Source: an uncultured bacterium | GTDB lineage: Bacteria; Patescibacteriota; Saccharimonadia; Saccharimonadales; Saccharimonadaceae | DNA length: 19,996 bases | Direction: 5' to 3' | Assembly: GCA_903861015.1 (NCBI GenBank) | Contig: CAIOSL010000089.1 | Coordinates: forward strand, 1 to 19,996 | In this document: positions 8,965 to 17,649 of the stretch, piece by piece | Numbering within the stretch: the first letter of the stretch is position 1 | Layout of the letters: every line of letters begins with the position of its first letter | The notes under the pieces: model-generated | Database searches by the model: none | Told to the model about the DNA's origin: nothing | Seen by the model: only the letters and a program-made list of their open reading frames with translations | Translations under genes and position numbers: made by a program

Positions 8965-9042
8965 GGCGAATGTAGCTCAGTTGGTTAGAGCGCTGGTCTG
9001 TGGATCCAGAGGTCGTGGGTTCAAAACCCATCGTTCGCCCCA
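8965..9042 (+). tRNA. tRNA-His(GTG) with encoded G-1 and CCA
   Basis: 78 bases. The extra 5' G (8965) pairs with C73, the identity feature of tRNA-His, ahead of acceptor GCGAATG/CGTTCGC. The D arm is GCTC/GAGC, the anticodon loop CTGTGGA and the T arm GTGGG/CCCAT. The anticodon stem CTGGT/TCCAG has a T31-T39 mismatch. The CCA end is the first part of the following terminator stem. Confidence 0.93.
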
Positions 9043-9082
9043 AATTAAAACACCAAGTTCTAACTTGGTGTTTTAATTTGGG
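9039..9082 (+). terminator. Long perfect hairpin terminator of tRNA-His
   Basis: A perfect 21-bp inverted repeat (arms 9039-9059 and 9062-9082, two-base centre) with a GC-containing core CACCAAGTT and a TTTTAATTT tail. The left arm starts inside the tRNA 3' end (CCC of the discriminator and CCA). Formation of the hairpin and of the acceptor end therefore compete slightly until processing. Confidence 0.75.
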
Positions 9083-9097
9083 ATGATCTATAGTTTT

Positions 9098-9219
9098 GAA
9101 TCCACGACGTCGTGGGTGAGAACTGCCAGTCGGCAGTTCGCAAGGCAATGTCACAAATGAATTATATTCATTTGACTGACTTGCGGGGTCGCCGCAGGTG
9201 ACCAAAACCCATAATTCGC
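9098..9219 (+). pseudogene. Degenerate tRNA-His 3' half split by an ~82-bp structured insert
   Basis: 9098-9117 (GAATCCA, CGAC, then GTCGTGGGT) resembles 9002-9020 of tRNA-His, with nine exact bases in GTCGTGGGT. 9203-9219 (CAAAACCCAT, two bases, TTCGC) matches 9022-9038 at 15 of 17 positions. In the tRNA these halves are one base apart. Here they are separated by 9118-9202, flanked by GGTGA at 9115-9119 and 9197-9201. Removing one GGTGA and the insert rebuilds a tRNA-like 3' half. The insert folds into hairpins: GAACTGCC/GGCAGTTC (9120-9139), CAAATGAAT/ATTCATTTG (9154-9174) nested within CGCAA/TTGCG (9139-9185), and GGTCGCC/GGTGACC (9187-9203, one G-T). A small palindromic mobile unit is a possible reading. 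Confidence 0.45.
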
Positions 9220-9238
9220 TTAATCACTGCATCTTACG

Positions 9239-9244
9239 TATAAT
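9239..9244 (+). promoter_or_regulatory. -10 box of the 9253-9540 gene, near-leaderless
   Basis: Perfect TATAAT eight bases before the ATG at 9253. No Shine-Dalgarno could be on the transcript. Confidence 0.55.
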
Positions 9245-9252
9245 ATATACAA

Positions 9253-9540
9253 ATGGATCTGAACAAACACATCGTTAAGTCGGACAACGACAGCCCACTT
9301 CACAGCAGTGGTTATGCCCAGATTGCCAGTGGCGATCGAATCGGATCAACTTCGAGCATGTCGTTTGAGCAGCGGCTGCAAATCGAGCGAAACCGTCAAG
9401 TTGTCGGCGGGTATAATCGGTCGGCGATTGGGCGGTCGTATGGCGTGTTGCGGGCCAAGGCGGTGTCGAACGAAGTTGGGCGGCGGGGTGTTTTGCCACC
9501 ACCACAGCCGACAGTTCGTAAGTACGACCCTTATGCCTAG
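9253..9540 (+). CDS. Small uncharacterised polar protein
   Basis: 95 residues, no membrane segment, no signal peptide and no cysteine. The first 35 residues are polar and look disordered. The middle (about 39-72) is rich in charged residues and could be helical (for example FEQRLQIERNRQVVGGYNRS). The tail is proline-rich (GVLPPPQPTVRKYDPYA). I do not recognise the family. It is supported as a gene by the -10 box eight bases before its ATG and by ordinary local composition. Its TAG overlaps the murA TAG on the other strand in a CTAG, so the two genes converge with no spacer. Basic tail and charged middle could suit nucleic acid or protein binding, but nothing shows it. Confidence 0.65.
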   Translation: MDLNKHIVKSDNDSPLHSSGYAQIASGDRIGSTSSMSFEQRLQIERNRQVVGGYNRSAIGRSYGVLRAKAVSNEVGRRGVLPPPQPTVRKYDPYA

Positions 9541-11066
9541 ATCTCGCGCAATGTCTCGATGTCGGCGCCAATGGCGTTTAGCCGATTAGCAAAGTCTTCG
9601 TAGCCACGATTGATCGAATAAACATCACGCAAAATCGATTTGCCAGGGGCGGCTAGCATAGCCAGTAATATTACAACCGATGGGCGCAGGGCGGGTGGCG
9701 CGATAACGTCAGCTGGCTTCCAGCGAGTTGGGCCGGTGATGTAAACTCGGTGCGGATCTACCAGCTCGATATTGGCGTTTAATTTGGTTAGCTCGGTAAA
9801 GTAAATCGCACGGTTTTCGTACGACCAGTCATGGACCAATGTTCGACCCTCGGCAACGGTGGCGATCAGGCCCATAAATGGCAGGTTGTCCATGTTAACA
9901 CCTGGGAACGGCATGCTGTGCAATTTGTCTTTTGGTGCGTGCAGGTTGGATTTGAGGATATGCACGTCAACCAGGCGAGTCATTTCGTTGCGGGCCGTGT
10001 ACTCGTCGCTCAGGCGGTATTCTAGCCCCATGCTCTCTAATATGGCCAGTTCGATCTCGATAAACTCGATTGGTGCGCGTTTGACGGTAATTTCGGAATG
10101 AGTGACGACGCCAGCGGCTATAAGACTGAGAGCTTCGATTGGGTCTTCACTGGGATAATATTCGACATTTTTGTTAATGCTGCGCAAACCGCGAATTTTA
10201 AGAGTAGTGCTGCCGATGCCTTCGATCTGAACGCCCAGCTTTTGCAAGAAAAAGCAGACGTCTTGAACCATGTAATTTGGGCTGGCGTTGCGGATAGTAA
10301 CCTCGCCGTCATAAAGGGCGGCGGCCATAATGACGTTCTCGGTGGTTGTGTCGCCACGTTCGGTCAGCAAGATCGTACGGGTGATGGGTTTTTTGTTGAC
10401 GGTAGCATGGTAAAAGTCACCGGTTGCTTCAACATTCAAGCCAAACGGCGCCAAGCCGGCCATATGGGGCTCGACGGTGCGCTTACCGAGATTGCAGCCA
10501 CCAGCGAAAGGAATCTTGAACTCGCTATATTGGTGCAGCAGCGGCCCCAGGAACATAATAACCGTACGAGTTTTCTTGGCCGCCTCGATATCCATGTCCT
10601 CCAGGCGCAGGCGAGCCGGTGGTGTAATCTCCAGGTCGTTACTGTCGTTTAGCCAGCGAACTTTAACGCCGATACTTTGCAAAACTTCGATTATGCGGTT
10701 AACTTCTTCGATGCGGGCCACGCGCCGTATAGTGGTGGTGCCACGGTTAAGTAAGCTGGCGCAAAGCAAGCCAACGGCGGCGTTTTTGCTGGTTTTTACC
10801 TCGATGGCACCGGAGAGCTCTTTGCCGCCGTTAATGAGGAAGTTAATTTTGCCAGACTGGTTAAGACTGACCAGCTCGCTTGATAAAACTTCGCTGATGC
10901 GAGCCAACATCTCAAGACTGATATTTTGACCGCCTTTTTCGATGCGATTAATGGCACTTTGGCTGGTGTTTAGGGCCTCGGCTAGTTGAGTTTGAGTTAG
11001 GCCCCGTGCCTGTCTTGTCTCTTGAATTAAGGTTCCAATTTTTGACTTGTAATCAATTGTCTTCAT
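9537..11066 (-). CDS. murA: UDP-GlcNAc 1-carboxyvinyltransferase with N-terminal helix-turn-helix (HTH-MurA)
   Basis: 509 residues against about 420 for ordinary MurA; the excess is an N-terminal XRE/Cro-type HTH. It spans about residues 10-68, with TQTQLAEALNTSQSAINRIE including a recognition helix near 34-44. The MurA domain starts near 73. K94-N95 in TSKNAA correspond to K22-N23 of E. coli MurA. C191 in GGCNLGKR is the PEP-binding loop cysteine (C115), so it should be fosfomycin-sensitive in principle. YENR and the FPGVNMDNLP segment match the active-site arginine and aspartate regions. The enzyme makes the first committed step of peptidoglycan synthesis in the cytoplasm. A perfect palindrome overlaps its promoter, so self-repression is plausible. 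It is divergent from glyA and convergent with the 95-residue gene. Confidence 0.92.
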   Translation of the reverse strand: MKTIDYKSKIGTLIQETRQARGLTQTQLAEALNTSQSAINRIEKGGQNISLEMLARISEVLSSELVSLNQSGKINFLINGGKELSGAIEVKTSKNAAVGLLCASLLNRGTTTIRRVARIEEVNRIIEVLQSIGVKVRWLNDSNDLEITPPARLRLEDMDIEAAKKTRTVIMFLGPLLHQYSEFKIPFAGGCNLGKRTVEPHMAGLAPFGLNVEATGDFYHATVNKKPITRTILLTERGDTTTENVIMAAALYDGEVTIRNASPNYMVQDVCFFLQKLGVQIEGIGSTTLKIRGLRSINKNVEYYPSEDPIEALSLIAAGVVTHSEITVKRAPIEFIEIELAILESMGLEYRLSDEYTARNEMTRLVDVHILKSNLHAPKDKLHSMPFPGVNMDNLPFMGLIATVAEGRTLVHDWSYENRAIYFTELTKLNANIELVDPHRVYITGPTRWKPADVIAPPALRPSVVILLAMLAAPGKSILRDVYSINRGYEDFANRLNAIGADIETLREI

Positions 11067-12506: not shown

Positions 12507-13349
12507 CTAAGACGCTGGTGTCCAGAAGTTAGTTGCCGAACCATAGGTTACGGTTGCTACTGCGCCGGCGCCATAATCCCAGAAGGTAATACGTCCACCC
12601 GTATTATTACATGGAGACGTCGCTGCGACCGCACTGCCACACTCAAACTTAACGGTTGTTGTGCCGTTGCCTGATGTCGGGTTGACTAGACCAACCGTCA
12701 TGCCCGCTGCTAATTTTGCACTAGATGCCGTATTAGCTTGAATCGACGCAGCTGTTGCTGGCCAGGTGCTAGAGTTCTCGTTATACATAGCACGAGCTAC
12801 TGCAATAGTAGCTTCTGCTAGCCCTACTTTATAACATGTAATATTGTAGCCATTGGTATATGTACCGGAAGTTATGCCTATGCTAGTGTTGGTATTTAAA
12901 CTACCCAACCCCTGGTCCCAGTAGGCAATTTTTACGCCAGTAGGTACTGTAATGGTCGCATAGCTCGTTGCAGCTGCCGCACTTGCTGTTCCGCATAAAG
13001 AAAAGTCTATTGCATCAGGCTGCGCTGGCTTGGTACTCATTGCAACGTTATTAGAAGCGGTTGTGAAATTTATCCCTGCTGCGTAGTAAGATGTGTTGGA
13101 CGAGCTGTTGTTTATAGACCCGTATGTAGTAGGCATACCGTATGCGGTGTCCACACTATATATATTGATTTTTGCTGCTGCTGCGTTTGCTTCAGATTGT
13201 CCAGCTGCCGTATTAGCTTTAGTCGTTATACCAGTATACGAAACAATCGTAATAGCTGCCAAGATACCAATGACAACGATAACGACCAAGAGTTCTACGA
13301 TAGTAAAACCACGAGATCCTTGTTTAGCTTTTATATTTTTTAGAACCAT
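12507..13349 (-). CDS. Type IV prepilin, two-module
   Basis: 280 residues. The prepilin leader ends at G14 in SRGFTIVELLVV, with F15 as the mature first residue and glutamate at +5. A hydrophobic helix of about 25 residues follows. The globular part seems to hold two related modules, each ending in a similar strand: VKIAYWDQGLGS near the middle and GGRITFWDYGAGA near the end. The second module resembles the whole body of the neighbouring pilin (13531-14019), including its C-x(n)-C before TGGRI. Its first ~40 residues and 5' leader are nearly identical at DNA level to that neighbour. It is likely a pilus subunit secreted by a type IV pilus or related machine; peptidase and ATPases are not in the window. 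Confidence 0.88.
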   Translation of the reverse strand: MVLKNIKAKQGSRGFTIVELLVVIVVIGILAAITIVSYTGITTKANTAAGQSEANAAAAKINIYSVDTAYGMPTTYGSINNSSSNTSYYAAGINFTTASNNVAMSTKPAQPDAIDFSLCGTASAAAATSYATITVPTGVKIAYWDQGLGSLNTNTSIGITSGTYTNGYNITCYKVGLAEATIAVARAMYNENSSTWPATAASIQANTASSAKLAAGMTVGLVNPTSGNGTTTVKFECGSAVAATSPCNNTGGRITFWDYGAGAVATVTYGSATNFWTPAS

Positions 13350-13370
13350 ATCTTCTGTATGCCCCCTAAT
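13225..13370 (-). repeat. Duplicated pilin 5' block, copy A
   Basis: 146 bases that match 13895-14040 at 144 positions (differences at 13293 and 13323). It covers the prepilin leader, the hydrophobic helix and 21 bases upstream of the ATG. Similarity stops abruptly on both sides, which indicates recent duplication or gene conversion of the pilin head. Confidence 0.9.
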
Positions 13371-13380
13371 ACTGGTATTA

Positions 13381-13386
13381 ATTATA
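13381..13386 (-). promoter_or_regulatory. -10 box of the two-module pilin gene
   Basis: TATAAT on the minus strand, 31 bases before the ATG at 13349, giving a leader of about 25 bases. A GGGGG run is present in the leader but is too far upstream to be a normal Shine-Dalgarno. Confidence 0.5.
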
Positions 13387-13425
13387 TACTAATTACTATA
13401 TAGGATAATAAGCATAAGTACAATA

Positions 13426-13481
13426 TTATTATCTTAGATATAGATATAGATATAGATATAGACATAGATCTAAGATAATAA
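13426..13481. repeat. Inverted repeat enclosing a hexanucleotide tandem repeat
   Basis: Perfect 14-bp arms TTATTATCTTAGAT and ATCTAAGATAATAA enclose 28 bases made of ATAGAT/TATAGA units (about four and a half, with one G-to-C-type change near 13463). It lies between the two pilin genes, just downstream of the second pilin's terminator on the minus strand. The tandem part could vary in copy number; no function is shown. Confidence 0.6.
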
Positions 13482-13507
13482 AGATGCCCGTATTCAATAC
13501 GAGCATC
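13476..13507 (-). terminator. Terminator of the short pilin gene
   Basis: On the minus strand GATGCTCGTATT and AATACGGGCATC pair (one T-G wobble) and are followed by TTTATTAT. It is placed 24 bases after the stop at 13531. Confidence 0.65.
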
Positions 13508-13530
13508 TGAATCTTAGTAATAACTCTATA

Positions 13531-14019
13531 TTAGTTAGCTGGCGCTGCGTATGTTCCAGCTGCTGTTCCGGCACCTACGTAGATATATTTATCAGCTGCG
13601 GCCTGGAAGTCCCAATAGGCAATACGTCCACCCGTTGAGTTTGTACATGTCGTGAGGCATGAGTAAGCAACGTTTGTGAGACCATTGGTTGCTGTAATGA
13701 CCGTACCGCCTGCGTTGTCTGGTATTGCTATACCCGCCTGTAGGTGAGATGATGCGCTACCACCAGTTAGGCCATAGTTAGCTAGCGTGTCTACTACCTT
13801 TGCTGGGTAAAAACCGTTGTCGGCGTTCATAGCTTCGGCTACTGCTTGCACTGCGTTTGCATTTGACTGAGCTTTTGCAGTATTGGCCTTTGCTGTTATA
13901 CCAGTATACGAAACAATCGTAATAGCTGCCAAGATACCAATGACAACGATAACGACCAAGAGCTCTACGATAGTAAAACCACGAGATCCTTGCTTAGCTT
14001 TTATATTTTTTAGAACCAT
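13531..14019 (-). CDS. Type IV prepilin, single-module
   Basis: 162 residues, a usual major-pilin length. It shares the prepilin leader, cleavage site (G14/F15, glutamate +5) and helix with the 12507-13349 protein. The body has AVAEAMNADNGFYPAKV followed by a C-x-x-x-C (SCLTTC) and an STGGRIAYWDF strand. It is monocistronic by position: its own TATAAT lies upstream and a terminator downstream. Compact size suggests this is the main pilus subunit and the two-module protein is a variant, but expression is unknown. Confidence 0.9.
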   Translation of the reverse strand: MVLKNIKAKQGSRGFTIVELLVVIVVIGILAAITIVSYTGITAKANTAKAQSNANAVQAVAEAMNADNGFYPAKVVDTLANYGLTGGSASSHLQAGIAIPDNAGGTVITATNGLTNVAYSCLTTCTNSTGGRIAYWDFQAAADKYIYVGAGTAAGTYAAPAN

Positions 14020-14040
14020 ATCTTCTGTATGCCCCCTAAT
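13895..14040 (-). repeat. Duplicated pilin 5' block, copy B
   Basis: Partner of 13225-13370, offset by exactly 670 bases, 144 of 146 positions identical. Confidence 0.9.
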
Positions 14041-14045
14041 TATTA

Positions 14046-14051
14046 ATTATA
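14046..14051 (-). promoter_or_regulatory. -10 box of the single-module pilin gene
   Basis: TATAAT on the minus strand, 26 bases before the ATG at 14019. The leader copies the block upstream of the other pilin. Confidence 0.5.
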
Positions 14052-14068
14052 TTTCTAGCTTACTATAG

Positions 14069-14084
14069 TGCTTAAATAAGCACA
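14069..14084. promoter_or_regulatory. Palindrome upstream of the single-module pilin promoter
   Basis: GTGCTTA, AA, TAAGCAC: perfect 7-bp arms. It lies where the -35 of the pilin promoter would be, eight bases past the stop of the upstream minor-pilin gene. No T tract follows on the minus strand, so an operator is as likely as a terminator. Confidence 0.4.
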
Positions 14085-14091
14085 AGCATTT

Positions 14092-15921
14092 TTATTGGTC
14101 GGCATAGAACGTTACACCATCCAGAGAGAACCAGCCGTTATTTCCGCTTATCGAAACTATATTTCCAGCAGTGTCGATATCTACCCGCGCGGCGGCGGCA
14201 TAACTGGTTGTATTTGACAATATGCGGCCAGATGGTCGATATCCTGGCGGCAAGGTGGCTATTATAGACCCGATACTTCCGCTTCTGACCATGCCTGCCA
14301 GGCTTACTAAATTATCTGGGCCCTTGGTGTATCGGGCATATCCGAAAGAGTTGACGTCTAAATTTGCCCAAGAGTTTAGCAGTACAAGGGTTGACCATTT
14401 GTTGTAGCTGGATGTGTAATATATGGCTTGGATCGACAAATCGTAACTTGATGGGCCGCCTTTTGCTACTATATTGCCACTAGTATCAATGGCGAATAGA
14501 TTTCCCGTAGAGGTATTATTGCTTCCGGCTATATGCATGTATTTGACAGGCGCTAGGGCGGAAGGTACGGACATTATTACATTAGAATCGGCAGTAGGGC
14601 CTCCAGTTACTAGCCCATTGACGTACACTCGGTTGTCATTGTCAAAAGTATATGACGGCGTGGCATAGCCCGAACCATAGCTGTGCCAACCTGTAGGAAA
14701 GCTACTAAAGTTGGTTAATGTATAGGGTGAGTCGGATGGAAGAAAGCGTATAGTGTCTAGTGATATCCAACCAGTATCGCCTATGCAAGCACCAATTGTG
14801 CCGTCTGGATATACATCAATCCTACCGTAAGTGTTTGGGTTGGTTTCGGTTATAAATATCAACTTTTCGGATGGTCTATAACCAACTGGCAGGGTGCCTA
14901 TGTTGTTTATGCAAGATATTCCAGCGACATTAACTTTTCTTATCAGGCCAGTCAATACGACGAGCCCGCTACTGGTACGTCTGAACGAAGCGTTGTTATA
15001 ACCGTAGCCATAATTTAGCCAGTTATTTTGCATCGGCAGCGATTTCCATACGACATCAGCCGATGGGGCGAAGTTGGTGTCGGGACTGGTTGCCCGGACC
15101 GTACCAGATTGGCTGATGTCACGACCGGCAATCGTAATGGTACCGTTGATACTTACCCCAATTGTACTGGCGGATTGTATCGCCGATTGTCTGATGCTGT
15201 CACTTTGGCTGCTGTCAGTGGCGGTGGTGCTAGCGACAGTTGAGCTGGGAGACGGGTAGTAACTGATCAAAAAGTTACCAGGCAGTACTCCATCGACTAA
15301 TTTTTCGTCTTGGGTTTTGCAAAATGTCGCTGATACGCCAGGGCTGCAGCTGGGTTGTTGCCACGACGCACCGACCGAACCATTTACGCAGCCACTGTTG
15401 GCATAATTTGATGGCATGACGGTTCGGCGCCAAAGTGTGTTGTTTTTGACGAAGTAGATAATATTGAGCATCACGATTGGGTTTTGGTTAAGTGCGCTGC
15501 TGCTGCAAGAATTGGGCTGATCGGCCATATACAAATAACTTTTTGTCTGGTTGGCGGGGTTATTGGTGGTGGCGTAGGTGTTAATAATCAACGCCTGGCC
15601 AATTGTCGAGTCGGTGTTGACGTTATGAAAGTTGGTTCGGTCATCATTATAGCCCTGCGGAGAGCTAAGAGCGATATTGTTGGTCGCCAAGATACCGCCA
15701 CTGTTGGTTACGTCTTGCTCGATTCGATTGAGGGCATCTTGGATACTGTAAGAAAGGTTGTTCGATGCACGACTGGCCAACACATTGCCGGTCAGGGTAA
15801 CGATAGTGCCAATAAAAATTCCAATTGTCAGCAGCACGATCGGAGCAACAATAATTATTTCAACCAGTGTAAAGCCGGTCGTTTGCAGCGGAGTTGTTGA
15901 GGTGGCTTTATGGTCTGACAT
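14092..15921 (-). CDS. Minor prepilin (PilW-like) with three C-terminal phage-tail-like domains
   Basis: 609 residues. The prepilin leader ends at G16 in TTGFTLVEIIIV, followed by a hydrophobic helix; residues ~20-280 resemble a large PilW/PilV-type minor pilin, with several cysteines. From about 299 come three related units of about 105 residues, starting around W301, W412 and W518. Units 1 and 3 contain a VVLTGLIRK / VSLAGMVRS strand, the signature LPVGYRP / LPPGYRP, a RIDVYPDGTIG / RVDIDTAGNIV strand, and a closing GWISLDTIRF / GWFSLDGVTF. Unit 2 keeps the frame but not LPxGYRP. I know this LPxGYRP domain from phage tail and baseplate receptor-binding proteins. A pilus-tip adhesin is the natural inference. 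The start overlaps the upstream gene by 14 bases; last gene of a three-gene operon. Confidence 0.87.
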   Translation of the reverse strand: MSDHKATSTTPLQTTGFTLVEIIIVAPIVLLTIGIFIGTIVTLTGNVLASRASNNLSYSIQDALNRIEQDVTNSGGILATNNIALSSPQGYNDDRTNFHNVNTDSTIGQALIINTYATTNNPANQTKSYLYMADQPNSCSSSALNQNPIVMLNIIYFVKNNTLWRRTVMPSNYANSGCVNGSVGASWQQPSCSPGVSATFCKTQDEKLVDGVLPGNFLISYYPSPSSTVASTTATDSSQSDSIRQSAIQSASTIGVSINGTITIAGRDISQSGTVRATSPDTNFAPSADVVWKSLPMQNNWLNYGYGYNNASFRRTSSGLVVLTGLIRKVNVAGISCINNIGTLPVGYRPSEKLIFITETNPNTYGRIDVYPDGTIGACIGDTGWISLDTIRFLPSDSPYTLTNFSSFPTGWHSYGSGYATPSYTFDNDNRVYVNGLVTGGPTADSNVIMSVPSALAPVKYMHIAGSNNTSTGNLFAIDTSGNIVAKGGPSSYDLSIQAIYYTSSYNKWSTLVLLNSWANLDVNSFGYARYTKGPDNLVSLAGMVRSGSIGSIIATLPPGYRPSGRILSNTTSYAAAARVDIDTAGNIVSISGNNGWFSLDGVTFYADQ

Positions 15922-16291
15922 AGGTTGCGTTGATTATGCTTAATTGAGGCGACCCGTATTTGAGCGTGACTTGAACTTTTGAAACAGATGTTGTCGAGCT
16001 ATATGGGCAAGTAATTGCCACACTGACAGTGACGTTGGACAGAGTGTCGACGGTAATAGCCTGGTCGGTAATAGGTGACTGGGCGGAGCATGGATTAGTG
16101 GCGATGGCTTTGTATCGCTGCAGGTAATCATAGGCGACGTTGCCGGCTTTGGCCTGGGCTCGGGCCTCGCCGCTATCTTTTATGATGGCGCTAAATAACT
16201 GAAAACCTGACATCAAAAAGGCGGCCGCGATAAACAGGGTAATTAATAGTTCGACGGTCGTAAAGCCACGGTTGTTTGATCGTTTGGTCAT
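15908..16291 (-). CDS. Minor prepilin / pseudopilin
   Basis: 127 residues with the prepilin leader ending at G9 in NRGFTTVELLIT, glutamate at +5, and a helix of about 20 hydrophobic residues. The small globular part has two cysteines (NPCSAQ and ITCPYS) that may pair, and ends in beta-type sequence. Its ATG overlaps the stop of the preceding gene by ATGA and its end overlaps the next by 14 bases, so all three are translated together. Small minor pilins usually prime assembly or sit at the tip with a large partner; here both neighbours carry adhesin-like domains. Confidence 0.88.
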   Translation of the reverse strand: MTKRSNNRGFTTVELLITLFIAAAFLMSGFQLFSAIIKDSGEARAQAKAGNVAYDYLQRYKAIATNPCSAQSPITDQAITVDTLSNVTVSVAITCPYSSTTSVSKVQVTLKYGSPQLSIINATYVRP

Positions 16292-17649
16292 TGGTTTTTT
16301 CCTGTTGCCATATACACGGTGTTGTCGCCCTCGAGTCGGTAATACAGATTAAATTTGCGGCATTCTTGTGATTCGTTGGTGCATAATGACCCGTCGTTTT
16401 GGATGGGTTGATAGACGTATTGATTAGCGTTAGGTTGTGGCAATACCCCTGCGGTTGTCTGGATGTTATTGGTGGCTGGTATGAATGTCTCGGATTGACT
16501 GGCGGCATTTGGGGAGATTAACGAGCTTTGATCGATATCACGCAACATTTGTTTGGCGTTGTTGTTGTAGATTATCAGGCTGGTGACGGTAAAAGTGCCA
16601 GGGCTAGTAAATATATGTATTGTATAACCCCCTGCTTGGTAAGTGATGCTTGGGTTGGCGTTGCTAGAATCGGTATAGAGTATTGTATTGCCGCCAGTTG
16701 CAGTTAGTGACCCGGTTGGGTACGAGACGATTACGACACCCGTTCCGCCGGTTCCACCAGCATTATTGCTGCCGACTTCCCAGCCACCCCCGCCACCACC
16801 ACCGCCAAAGTTGTTTGCTGCGGCCGTCGAGCTATAAATAATTGTCGAGCCAGAACTGACACCACCGTTACCGGCATTAGTGCCACCCATGCCGCGATTG
16901 ATGCTGCTGCCGGTGTTGCTGGTATCAAGCCAGCCACCGCCACCACCCGATCCGTATATCTGCGCAGTGCCGCTGATCGAACTCGATACTCCAATACCAC
17001 CGTCGCCGGCCTTTAGTGATGAAGCGTTTTGGCCCAAGGCTGCCGCACCACCGCCACCACCACCGTTGTAATAACGACTATAATTAGAATAGCCATTACC
17101 ACCGCTGTTGCCTTGACCGCTGTATATCGAAGTTCCGCCCAGATTGTATGTGTAACCGCCGCCACCCGAAGCACCATTGGCGCCACCACCGCCGCCACCA
17201 TATGCGGTTATGTCCGAAAAGGTTGAAAAGTTGCCATTTGAACCGTTAGCATTCACTGACGATCCAGGCGCACCACCACTACCAACGATTACGCCGTAGG
17301 AGTGTTGAGTAAGCCCGAATGAGGGGTTATAAACAACTCCGCCGCCACCGCCACCGCCATGGACGTTATTGCCACCACCGCCGCCACCACCCACAACCAA
17401 GACTTTGGCTTGGGCGGTAGTTAACGTAACTAATGTTGAGGGATATCGGCCTACGCTAGTACTGGTGTCAGACCCGTAGCTGTAAAAATTATCCAGGTGG
17501 GTGATTATGGTTTCGATGTCGGTTTTGCGCTCGGTGTCCCGGGCGCTAACTTGTGAGTCGCGCAAATTAACCACATTTAATACCAGCAGGGCGCCCATTA
17601 TCGTAATAACGATAATTAATTCAACAATAGTAAACCCACGACGCTTCAT
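16288..17649 (-). CDS. Minor prepilin with a nested glycine-rich adhesin-like domain
   Basis: 453 residues. The prepilin leader is very short (MKRRG, F6 mature, glutamate +5). Residues 6-80 are a pilin head with the usual RDTERKTDIETIITHLDNFY. Residues ~81-357 are an insert: KVLVVGGGGGGG, many poly-Gly loops, GTGVVIVSYPTG near 301-313, then GGYTIHIFTSPGTFTV near 340-355. The pilin body resumes with AKQMLRDIDQSSLISPN and a cysteine pair near LCTNESQECRKF. The insert resembles the glycine-rich domains of phage tail adhesins and some surface proteins. A binding role at the pilus tip is inferred. First gene of the minor-pilin operon; -10 TATGAT six bases before the ATG, hence leaderless. Confidence 0.87.
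   Translation of the reverse strand: MKRRGFTIVELIIVITIMGALLVLNVVNLRDSQVSARDTERKTDIETIITHLDNFYSYGSDTSTSVGRYPSTLVTLTTAQAKVLVVGGGGGGGNNVHGGGGGGGVVYNPSFGLTQHSYGVIVGSGGAPGSSVNANGSNGNFSTFSDITAYGGGGGGANGASGGGGYTYNLGGTSIYSGQGNSGGNGYSNYSRYYNGGGGGGAAALGQNASSLKAGDGGIGVSSSISGTAQIYGSGGGGGWLDTSNTGSSINRGMGGTNAGNGGVSSGSTIIYSSTAAANNFGGGGGGGGWEVGSNNAGGTGGTGVVIVSYPTGSLTATGGNTILYTDSSNANPSITYQAGGYTIHIFTSPGTFTVTSLIIYNNNAKQMLRDIDQSSLISPNAASQSETFIPATNNIQTTAGVLPQPNANQYVYQPIQNDGSLCTNESQECRKFNLYYRLEGDNTVYMATGKNQ

Follow-up and report, generated by a model that had tools for sequence, protein, structure and literature searches.

A probable modular minor prepilin of a saccharibacterial type IV pilus with a putative surface-binding head related to the tail proteins of Microbacterium phages

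The minus strand of the window (the whole stretch of 19,996 nt analysed here, from a genome of 728,040 bases in 97 contigs) encodes a 609 aa prepilin that is probably a minor pilin of modular build in the type IV pilus of a saccharibacterium, with an exchangeable adhesin head serving host capture. Among its relatives the N-terminal scaffold is conserved and the C-terminal head is exchanged; the head found here is a fixed triple of units homologous to phage tail proteins, and the order of the operon is kept. The bacterium itself probably lives on other bacteria.

The gene is the third, counted from the 5′ end, in a row of five prepilin genes at 12507–17649 on the minus strand. The features are as follows.

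16288..17649, minus strand: 453 aa prepilin with its own Gly_rich_2 head (PF21722, 2.1e-19; phrog_2295, 7.2e-51)
15908..16291, minus strand: 127 aa PilV/ComGE-like prepilin, overlapping the modular pilin gene by 14 bases (ORF, models)
14092..15921, minus strand: modular minor prepilin, 609 aa (ORF; phmmer homologues; family alignment)
15859..15876, minus strand: prepilin cleavage motif GFTLVE, residues 16–21, followed by a hydrophobic stretch (sequence)
15067..15921, minus strand: pilin scaffold, residues 1–285, kept while the C-terminal head changes (relatives' loci)
14731..15048, minus strand: unit 1, residues 292–397 (Smith-Waterman, family alignment, profiles)
14872..14892, minus strand: LPVGYRP of unit 1, residues 344–350 (sequence)
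14410..14718, minus strand: unit 2, residues 402–504, without LPxGYRP and with VPSALAPVKYMHI instead (alignment, profiles)
14095..14403, minus strand: unit 3, residues 507–609 (Smith-Waterman, family alignment, profiles)
14233..14253, minus strand: LPPGYRP of unit 3, residues 557–563 (sequence)
13531..14019, minus strand: 162 aa prepilin downstream of the modular pilin (N_methyl, 2.4e-7)
12507..13349, minus strand: 280 aa prepilin, last of the five-pilin cluster (N_methyl, 4.8e-7)

The modular pilin begins with a class III signal peptide and a hydrophobic N-terminal helix (GFTLVE, with F17 and E21), and F17, E21 and P27 are invariant across the 78 aligned modular-pilin rows; the Pfam N_methyl model gave no match to the 609 aa protein at E ≤ 1. 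Its 127 aa neighbour matches the ComGE (4e-7) and PilV (6.7e-5) models, both below the curated cut-offs, and N_methyl with 19.1 bits, again below cut-off. Many relatives have a prepilin of ~127 aa in the same position, 5′ of the modular pilin. No curated family model reached its cut-off with the modular pilin itself, the best being GspH (0.04) and HpsC (0.054), both far below. In the window and in most of the relatives' loci it directly follows the PilV/ComGE-like pilin, whose ComGE match is the sub-cut-off one given above, and this gene order suggests a PilW/ComGF position for the scaffold. The 453 aa protein is a second modular prepilin of the same operon.

Several further features of this genome were noted. 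The pilins at 12507–13349 and 13531–14019 (both minus) are nearly identical in their first ~47 residues and upstream sequence and different beyond, which looks like recent duplication or gene conversion. Between them, at 13428–13479, lies a run of atagat repeats flanked by a 12-base inverted repeat, attatcttagat / atctaagataat (both by eye). An XRE-type helix-turn-helix domain appears, again by eye, to be fused to a MurA-like enzyme at 9537–11066 (minus). On other contigs of the same genome, G000 (C53, C71 and C45; L173, L174 and L179), more large prepilins with glycine-rich C-terminal parts were seen by eye, one of them with a LamG-like C-terminal part.

The first-pass annotation had read the C-terminus as three repeats starting at W301, W412 and W518, phage-tail modules joined to a type IV prepilin, with possible variation in repeat number and a second unit whose loss of LPxGYRP could signal a changed specificity. 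The repeats of ~100 aa are borne out at those positions, and units 1 and 3 do share a motif series (LPxGYRP, RIDVYPDGTI / RVDIDTAGNI and GWISLDTIRF / GWFSLDGVTF). When unit-to-unit Smith-Waterman scores were judged against 1000 shuffles, units 1 and 3 scored 146 (shuffles: mean 29.1, sd 5.2, max 61) and units 2 and 3 scored 66 (mean 31.8, sd 6.1, max 62); units 1 and 2, at 54 (mean 29.1, sd 5.3, max 61), fell inside the shuffle range since the score is below the shuffle maximum. With HMMs built from 78 rows, the window protein itself included, unit 2 scored 50 bits against the model of units 1 and 3 and 97 bits against that of second units, and by these family profiles it is firmly placed as a repeat. 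Neither Pfam nor NCBIfam matched the repeat stretch at E ≤ 1.

The kinship with phage tails stood as well: the C-terminal 312 residues matched phrog_13022 (3.2e-18), phrog_3285, a ‘minor tail protein’ (7.3e-12), and phrog_14029 (6.2e-11) in PHROGs. So did the fusion; GFTLVE occupies residues 16–21 of the same ORF. The two remaining suggestions of the first reading did not hold. Exactly three units are present in 83/83 scaffold-bearing proteins among the 120 listed, counted with profiles that came from 78 of the counted proteins, and likewise in 38/38 distinct cassette ORFs of the examined loci. The LPxGYRP motif is found in 58/78 first, 5/78 second and 57/78 third units of the aligned homologues; its loss from unit 2 is thus family-wide, and because of this, and because the middle units of all seven named phages resemble unit 2, a local change of specificity is unsupported.

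The family was gathered by a protein search with residues 295–609, which returned 135 proteins, 120 of them listed; 83 of the 120 carry the scaffold. The family alignment holds 78 of the 120, those with the same scaffold and with the start present, and omits fragments, other carriers and non-pilins. Pairwise identity among the 78 averages 46 % in the scaffold and 38, 34 and 44 % in units 1, 2 and 3, the slice for unit 1 taking in the linker domain of longer members. Across the phylum, the full-length profile finds 152 of 379 genomes at E ≤ 1e-3, in most of those listed through the pilin start alone, and among the matches listed every one that spans scaffold and cassette belongs to the window's family. 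Within that family, 116/295 genomes match at 1e-15, and by a count of the listing the cassette is reached in at least 48 of the 116; cassettes on other carriers may be missed, as scoring took in no more than three candidates per genome.

The cassette is also found beyond this scaffold. A second pilin family (P0061, P0065 and P0197–P0207; 955–985 aa, of high-GC-type composition) has the same three-unit cassette at the end of all 13 members, which make up 13 of the 14 proteins found. In P0057 it stands behind an fn3-like domain, with a membrane-protein-like N-terminus in place of the pilin. Single units turn up in proteins of cyanobacteria as well as in Firmicutes and Proteobacteria phages, so the fold as such is generic. 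Plasmid carriage was considered and rejected, with 1 record among 72,556 matching about one unit. A scan of viral contigs with exact peptides of the modular pilin matched 8 stretches and no relatives, a result that says little because the patterns were narrow. A phmmer search of the C-terminus against solved structures found just two asparaginases (E 0.16), taken as chance.

Exchange of the head is evident when loci are compared. Scanning the named genomes with a 24-row alignment gave 33 loci, and in 20 of these the scaffold and the triple lie in one frame. In a further locus (L051) the modular pilin copy is split over two frames (8992–10820, plus strand), owing perhaps to gene breakage or to a fault of assembly. 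In another (L055) the scaffold has no head, and it is the pilin next to it that carries the triple, with a LamG domain after it. Other heads are present at 4/33 loci, namely LamG (L034 and L043), three Gly_rich_2 domains (L035) and a Fibrinogen_C-like domain (L036); six have a bare scaffold (L048 and L060–L064), and one (L058) ends at a contig edge. Forty further regions from relatives, mostly picked for a scaffold without the triple and in some cases contigs of the named loci, added heads of LamG (L101), CBM_4_9 (L115), fn3 with FG-GAP (L125) and fn3 (L114), as well as a scaffold protein of 703 aa whose extension lacks a domain assignment (L094). Domains that are not specific to pili are joined to this pilin module both as the cassette (residues 292–609) and as the other heads on the scaffold, and in the scaffold-bearing ORFs of the examined loci the cassette is the C-terminal end.

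Neighbouring pilins carry heads of their own. First-gene pilins bear Gly_rich_2 heads in the window and at L032, L034, L035, L036, L043 and L050, and second-gene pilins bear LamG heads at L047, L049 and L050 and an F5/8 type C domain at L035. A different pilin with fn3 and the triple, identical in kind to P0009, is encoded in genome G523 (L127, 543 aa). Close to it lies a pilin (L127:2857–5199, minus) with fn3, three Phage Tail Collar domains (5.6e-58) and Gp10_C. Collar domains were found at 1e-6 in 18/290 family genomes, and a prepilin motif starts several of these frames; Phage Tail Collar domains are thus further phage-tail parts on saccharibacterial prepilins (L127 and L144–L163).

On the phage side, tblastn of the window's cassette against 50,697 phage records matched 28, and the 15 in which at least 80 % of the cassette was covered are all from Microbacterium phages. 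With the cassette of phage Pumpernickel as query 73 records matched, 32 of them covered to at least 80 %, and 32/32 are again from Microbacterium phages, a raw count that depends on the make-up of the collection. The other 41 records are from phages of Streptococcus (37), Staphylococcus (2), Pseudoalteromonas and Paenibacillus, and the 28 of these that were listed covered ~30 %, i.e. one unit. Given the second pilin family and the wide spread of single units, the link to Microbacteriaceae rests on the make-up of the phage collection. Whole-cassette phage matches share 25–29 % identity with the window.

Seven phage records were examined, two from Akonivirus, one each from Dismasvirus, Neferthenavirus and Zetavirus, and two from unclassified ~190-kb phages. 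The carriers are Pumpernickel gp98, A3Wally gp101, Akoni gp37, Zhengyi gp35, BAjuniper gp18, Neferthena gp21 and Cen1621 gp16, annotated as minor tail proteins in six cases and as hypothetical in that of A3Wally gp101. The preceding gene is a minor tail protein in all seven records, and an endolysin gene follows one or two genes later in five; for the two ~190-kb phages, no endolysin was found after the cassette gene within the stretch examined.

The atypical middle unit is shared with these phages. All seven middle units prefer the second-unit profile, the margin running from 0.5 to 16.8 bits and staying as low as 0.5 to 2 bits in Cen1621, Neferthena and Akoni; the profile for units 1 and 3 is preferred by 14/14 outer units and, as a control, by 10/10 single-unit proteins. 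The metagenomic protein P0101 conforms to this rule; P0094 (12.1 versus 22.8 bits) and P0092 (3.0 versus 4.4) are exceptions. Letters common to the middle units include an H (46/78 in the family, 7/7 in the phages) and a K (44/78 and 7/7). A search with the Pumpernickel cassette found 76 proteins, and hhalign of 24 of these with the 78 family rows gave an alignment collinear over 309 columns (100%, E 5.8e-54). Judged by sequence, the whole U1-U2-U3 cassette, its odd middle unit included, is homologous to the Microbacterium phage minor tail proteins over the three units in order.

A single origin of the triple is favoured but not proven, and transfer could have run in either direction. In a quick tree, 19/19 second units from pilins and other carriers (14 scaffold proteins and 5 others) grouped with 8/9 phage-type second units at an SH-aLRT of 99. 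The exception, unit 2 of P0094 (counted as phage-type), fell outside the U2 clade, and this protein was left out of the first AU test, in which phage units as one clade were not rejected (p-AU 0.762). The trees holding second units together and phage units together were both likelier than the free quick tree, so the first tree search is judged to have been short. A smaller AU test, using 18 of the 28 three-unit proteins (12/19 from pilins and other carriers, 6/9 phage-type) and 4/10 single units, did not reject phage units as one clade (p-AU 0.188, with a shortened search) or saccharibacterial-side units as one clade (p-AU 0.167).

Which pilus the operon serves can be approached through linkage. 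In each of 12 genomes, the window's and 11 relatives, two matches of the PilB type span almost all of the PF00437 model, and they are accompanied by a PilT-like gene and a third ATPase in a longer frame. The PilT-like gene lies beside one PilB; the other PilB has no second PF00437 match beside it and lies 5–6 kb from RecA in 11/12 genomes, the two being on different contigs in the window's genome. In relatives the pilin operon is linked to this RecA-side machinery: it lies 24–66 kb from the RecA-side PilB in nine of the ten genomes with both on one contig, a count covering ten relatives, as the window's genome (G000) and G260 have operon and PilB on different contigs. Eight of the nine linked genomes have the cassette and the ninth, G389, a bare scaffold; in the exception, G461, also with a bare scaffold, the distance is 378 kb.

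This arrangement resembles T4P-2 of TM7x, in which a pilin cluster likewise stands apart from recA-linked machinery without a retraction ATPase: locus two is described as containing recAX and lacking the retraction ATPase, and locus three as holding five pilins (PMC12206443), the nearness of the two being judged from locus tags only. The thin pilus of TM7x aids host binding and, according to a section heading of the same report, has no part in motility or competency. Loss of PilA2, PilX2, PilB2 or PilC2 lowered bound host cells from ~10.6 % to 3.7–4.8 %, and loss of PilK, PilW2, PilV2 or PilZ2 did not significantly change binding (PMC12206443). The intact binding after deletion of PilW2 or PilV2 counts against a role of the modular pilin in host capture. 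According to the same report, variable loops lengthen PilW2, and it has no extra domain at its C-terminus. The type of pilus thus fits host binding, the TM7x pilin of the same letter not being itself needed.

Taken together, the scaffold (residues 1–~285) would co-assemble with the minor pilins encoded beside it. Its place would probably be the tip of the pilus, the position suggested for modular pilins in general (PMC8179133). The last ~318 residues would form the exchangeable head, here the fixed three-unit cassette, whose phage counterpart is the C-terminal, presumably receptor-binding, part of the Microbacterium phage minor tail proteins. The lectin-like domains found in its place in relatives, the homology to a phage tail C-terminus and a weak similarity to the PSA protein discussed below make the head most likely a putative cell-surface binder. 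Its ligand would most likely be a glycan of the cell wall, or some other structure on the surface, of an actinobacterial host, and through such binding the pilus would help to capture that host; we infer the tip position, the binding, the nature of the ligand and the host alike. That the number of units is fixed at three and that phage receptor-binding proteins are homotrimeric suggests that the cassette could form a single-chain pseudo-trimer.

Heads of this kind could also serve general attachment to surfaces, through a common environmental polysaccharide or matrix and not through a particular host. The general lectin-like or carbohydrate-binding heads on the same scaffold, and the cyanobacterial proteins with single units, would agree with this. 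Nonetheless it seems unlikely, as the only phages with the complete cassette among 50,697 records infect a single actinobacterial genus, and Actinobacteria are the hosts of cultivated Saccharibacteria (PMC10633639). That the cassette is a mere structural spacer or oligomerization piece without a ligand of its own is quite doubtful: always having exactly three units is as expected of a structural element, and siphophage receptor-binding proteins, that of PSA included, are homotrimers (PMC7291167), but the cassette ends the scaffold-bearing ORFs, leaving nothing further to be carried, and lectin-like domains replace it in relatives.

A pilin of a DNA-uptake pilus, its head assisting DNA capture, would account for the resemblance of the neighbouring gene to ComGE (4e-7, below cut-off). 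We regard this as very improbable, given that the relatives' operon is linked to RecA-side machinery without PilT, that the comparable pilus of TM7x serves host binding and not competency (PMC12206443), and that the head has its relatives among phage tail proteins, with no DNA-binding domain matched in Pfam, PHROGs or NCBIfam. The modular pilin with an exchangeable host-capture head remains the preferred explanation.

A bolder extension, tentative and on the whole somewhat unlikely, is an exchange, between Saccharibacteria and the phages of their actinobacterial hosts, of an entire host-recognition cassette in three parts, folded as a single-chain pseudo-trimer whose middle unit is specialized, with host range set by the heads and a receptor shared by both. 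If so, with a shared receptor on Microbacteriaceae-like hosts, epibiont and phage would compete, and phage-resistant host mutants would also escape the epibiont. Exchange of heads on the scaffold would set the epibiont's host range, and one monomeric pilin would present a whole receptor-binding head.

How ultrasmall epibionts identify and bind their hosts has been described as largely unknown (PMC12206443). The locus described here supplies a candidate for such a recognition protein, one whose heads are interchangeable, and one head is tied to a cassette on the tails of phages with a known host genus, so that the question of its ligand is directly testable. This suggests that epibionts and viruses share parts for recognizing bacterial hosts and that phage tails could help to predict the hosts of epibionts. 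One cultivated case, known at the level of the pilus, is in line with this: the host of TM7i is Leucobacter, type IV pili have been credited with the association (PMC8672522), and Leucobacter and Microbacterium both belong to the Microbacteriaceae. No published work combining saccharibacterial pilins with phage tail parts was found within the literature searched.

Among known systems, the closest in architecture are the modular type IV pilins, of which 264 architectures have been surveyed, including Streptococcus sanguinis PilB with a vWA domain and PilC with a lectin domain (PMC8179133). Like the window's protein, they consist of an N-terminal pilin module with a grafted functional domain for display on the filament; PF13385 heads occur both among them and on the saccharibacterial scaffold, and a saccharibacterial protein is among the survey's examples. 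The window's pilin differs in having a three-unit phage-tail head without a Pfam match, a kind of head not named in the available part of that survey, and its family differs in placing several alternative heads on one scaffold among close relatives. PilX1 and PilX2 of TM7x are likewise saccharibacterial minor pilins with an added C-terminal domain, and PilX2 is needed for full host binding (PMC12206443). The head of PilX2 is an RCC1 beta-propeller, unlike the cassette; PilX1 is described as jelly-roll-like (PMC12206443). RCC1_2 had no match at 1e-8 in the window's genome (completeness 94.5 %) and was found at that threshold in 81/199 family genomes, not all in pilins; three frames were checked, and each encodes a prepilin that bears an RCC1 domain.

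A more tentative comparison is with Gp15 of Listeria phage PSA, identified with the chain of PDB 6r5w by a 100 % match. It was matched weakly by three profiles over about one unit (E 0.0026, 0.024 and 0.15), tying with chain 9nxp at E 0.024 in one of these searches; the single window sequence matched neither when searched against solved structures. A published tool kit employs PSA Gp15 to bind wall teichoic acid decorated with galactose (PMC7301860). Solved siphophage receptor-binding proteins, PSA Gp15 among them, are homotrimers, and Gp15 has one head domain per chain, whereas the window's cassette has three units in one chain (PMC7291167). The Microbacterium phage minor tail proteins, finally, share with the window a C-terminal U1-U2-U3 cassette with an atypical middle unit; the carrier is a tail protein in the phages and a pilin in the window, and receptor binding by the phage proteins is presumed.
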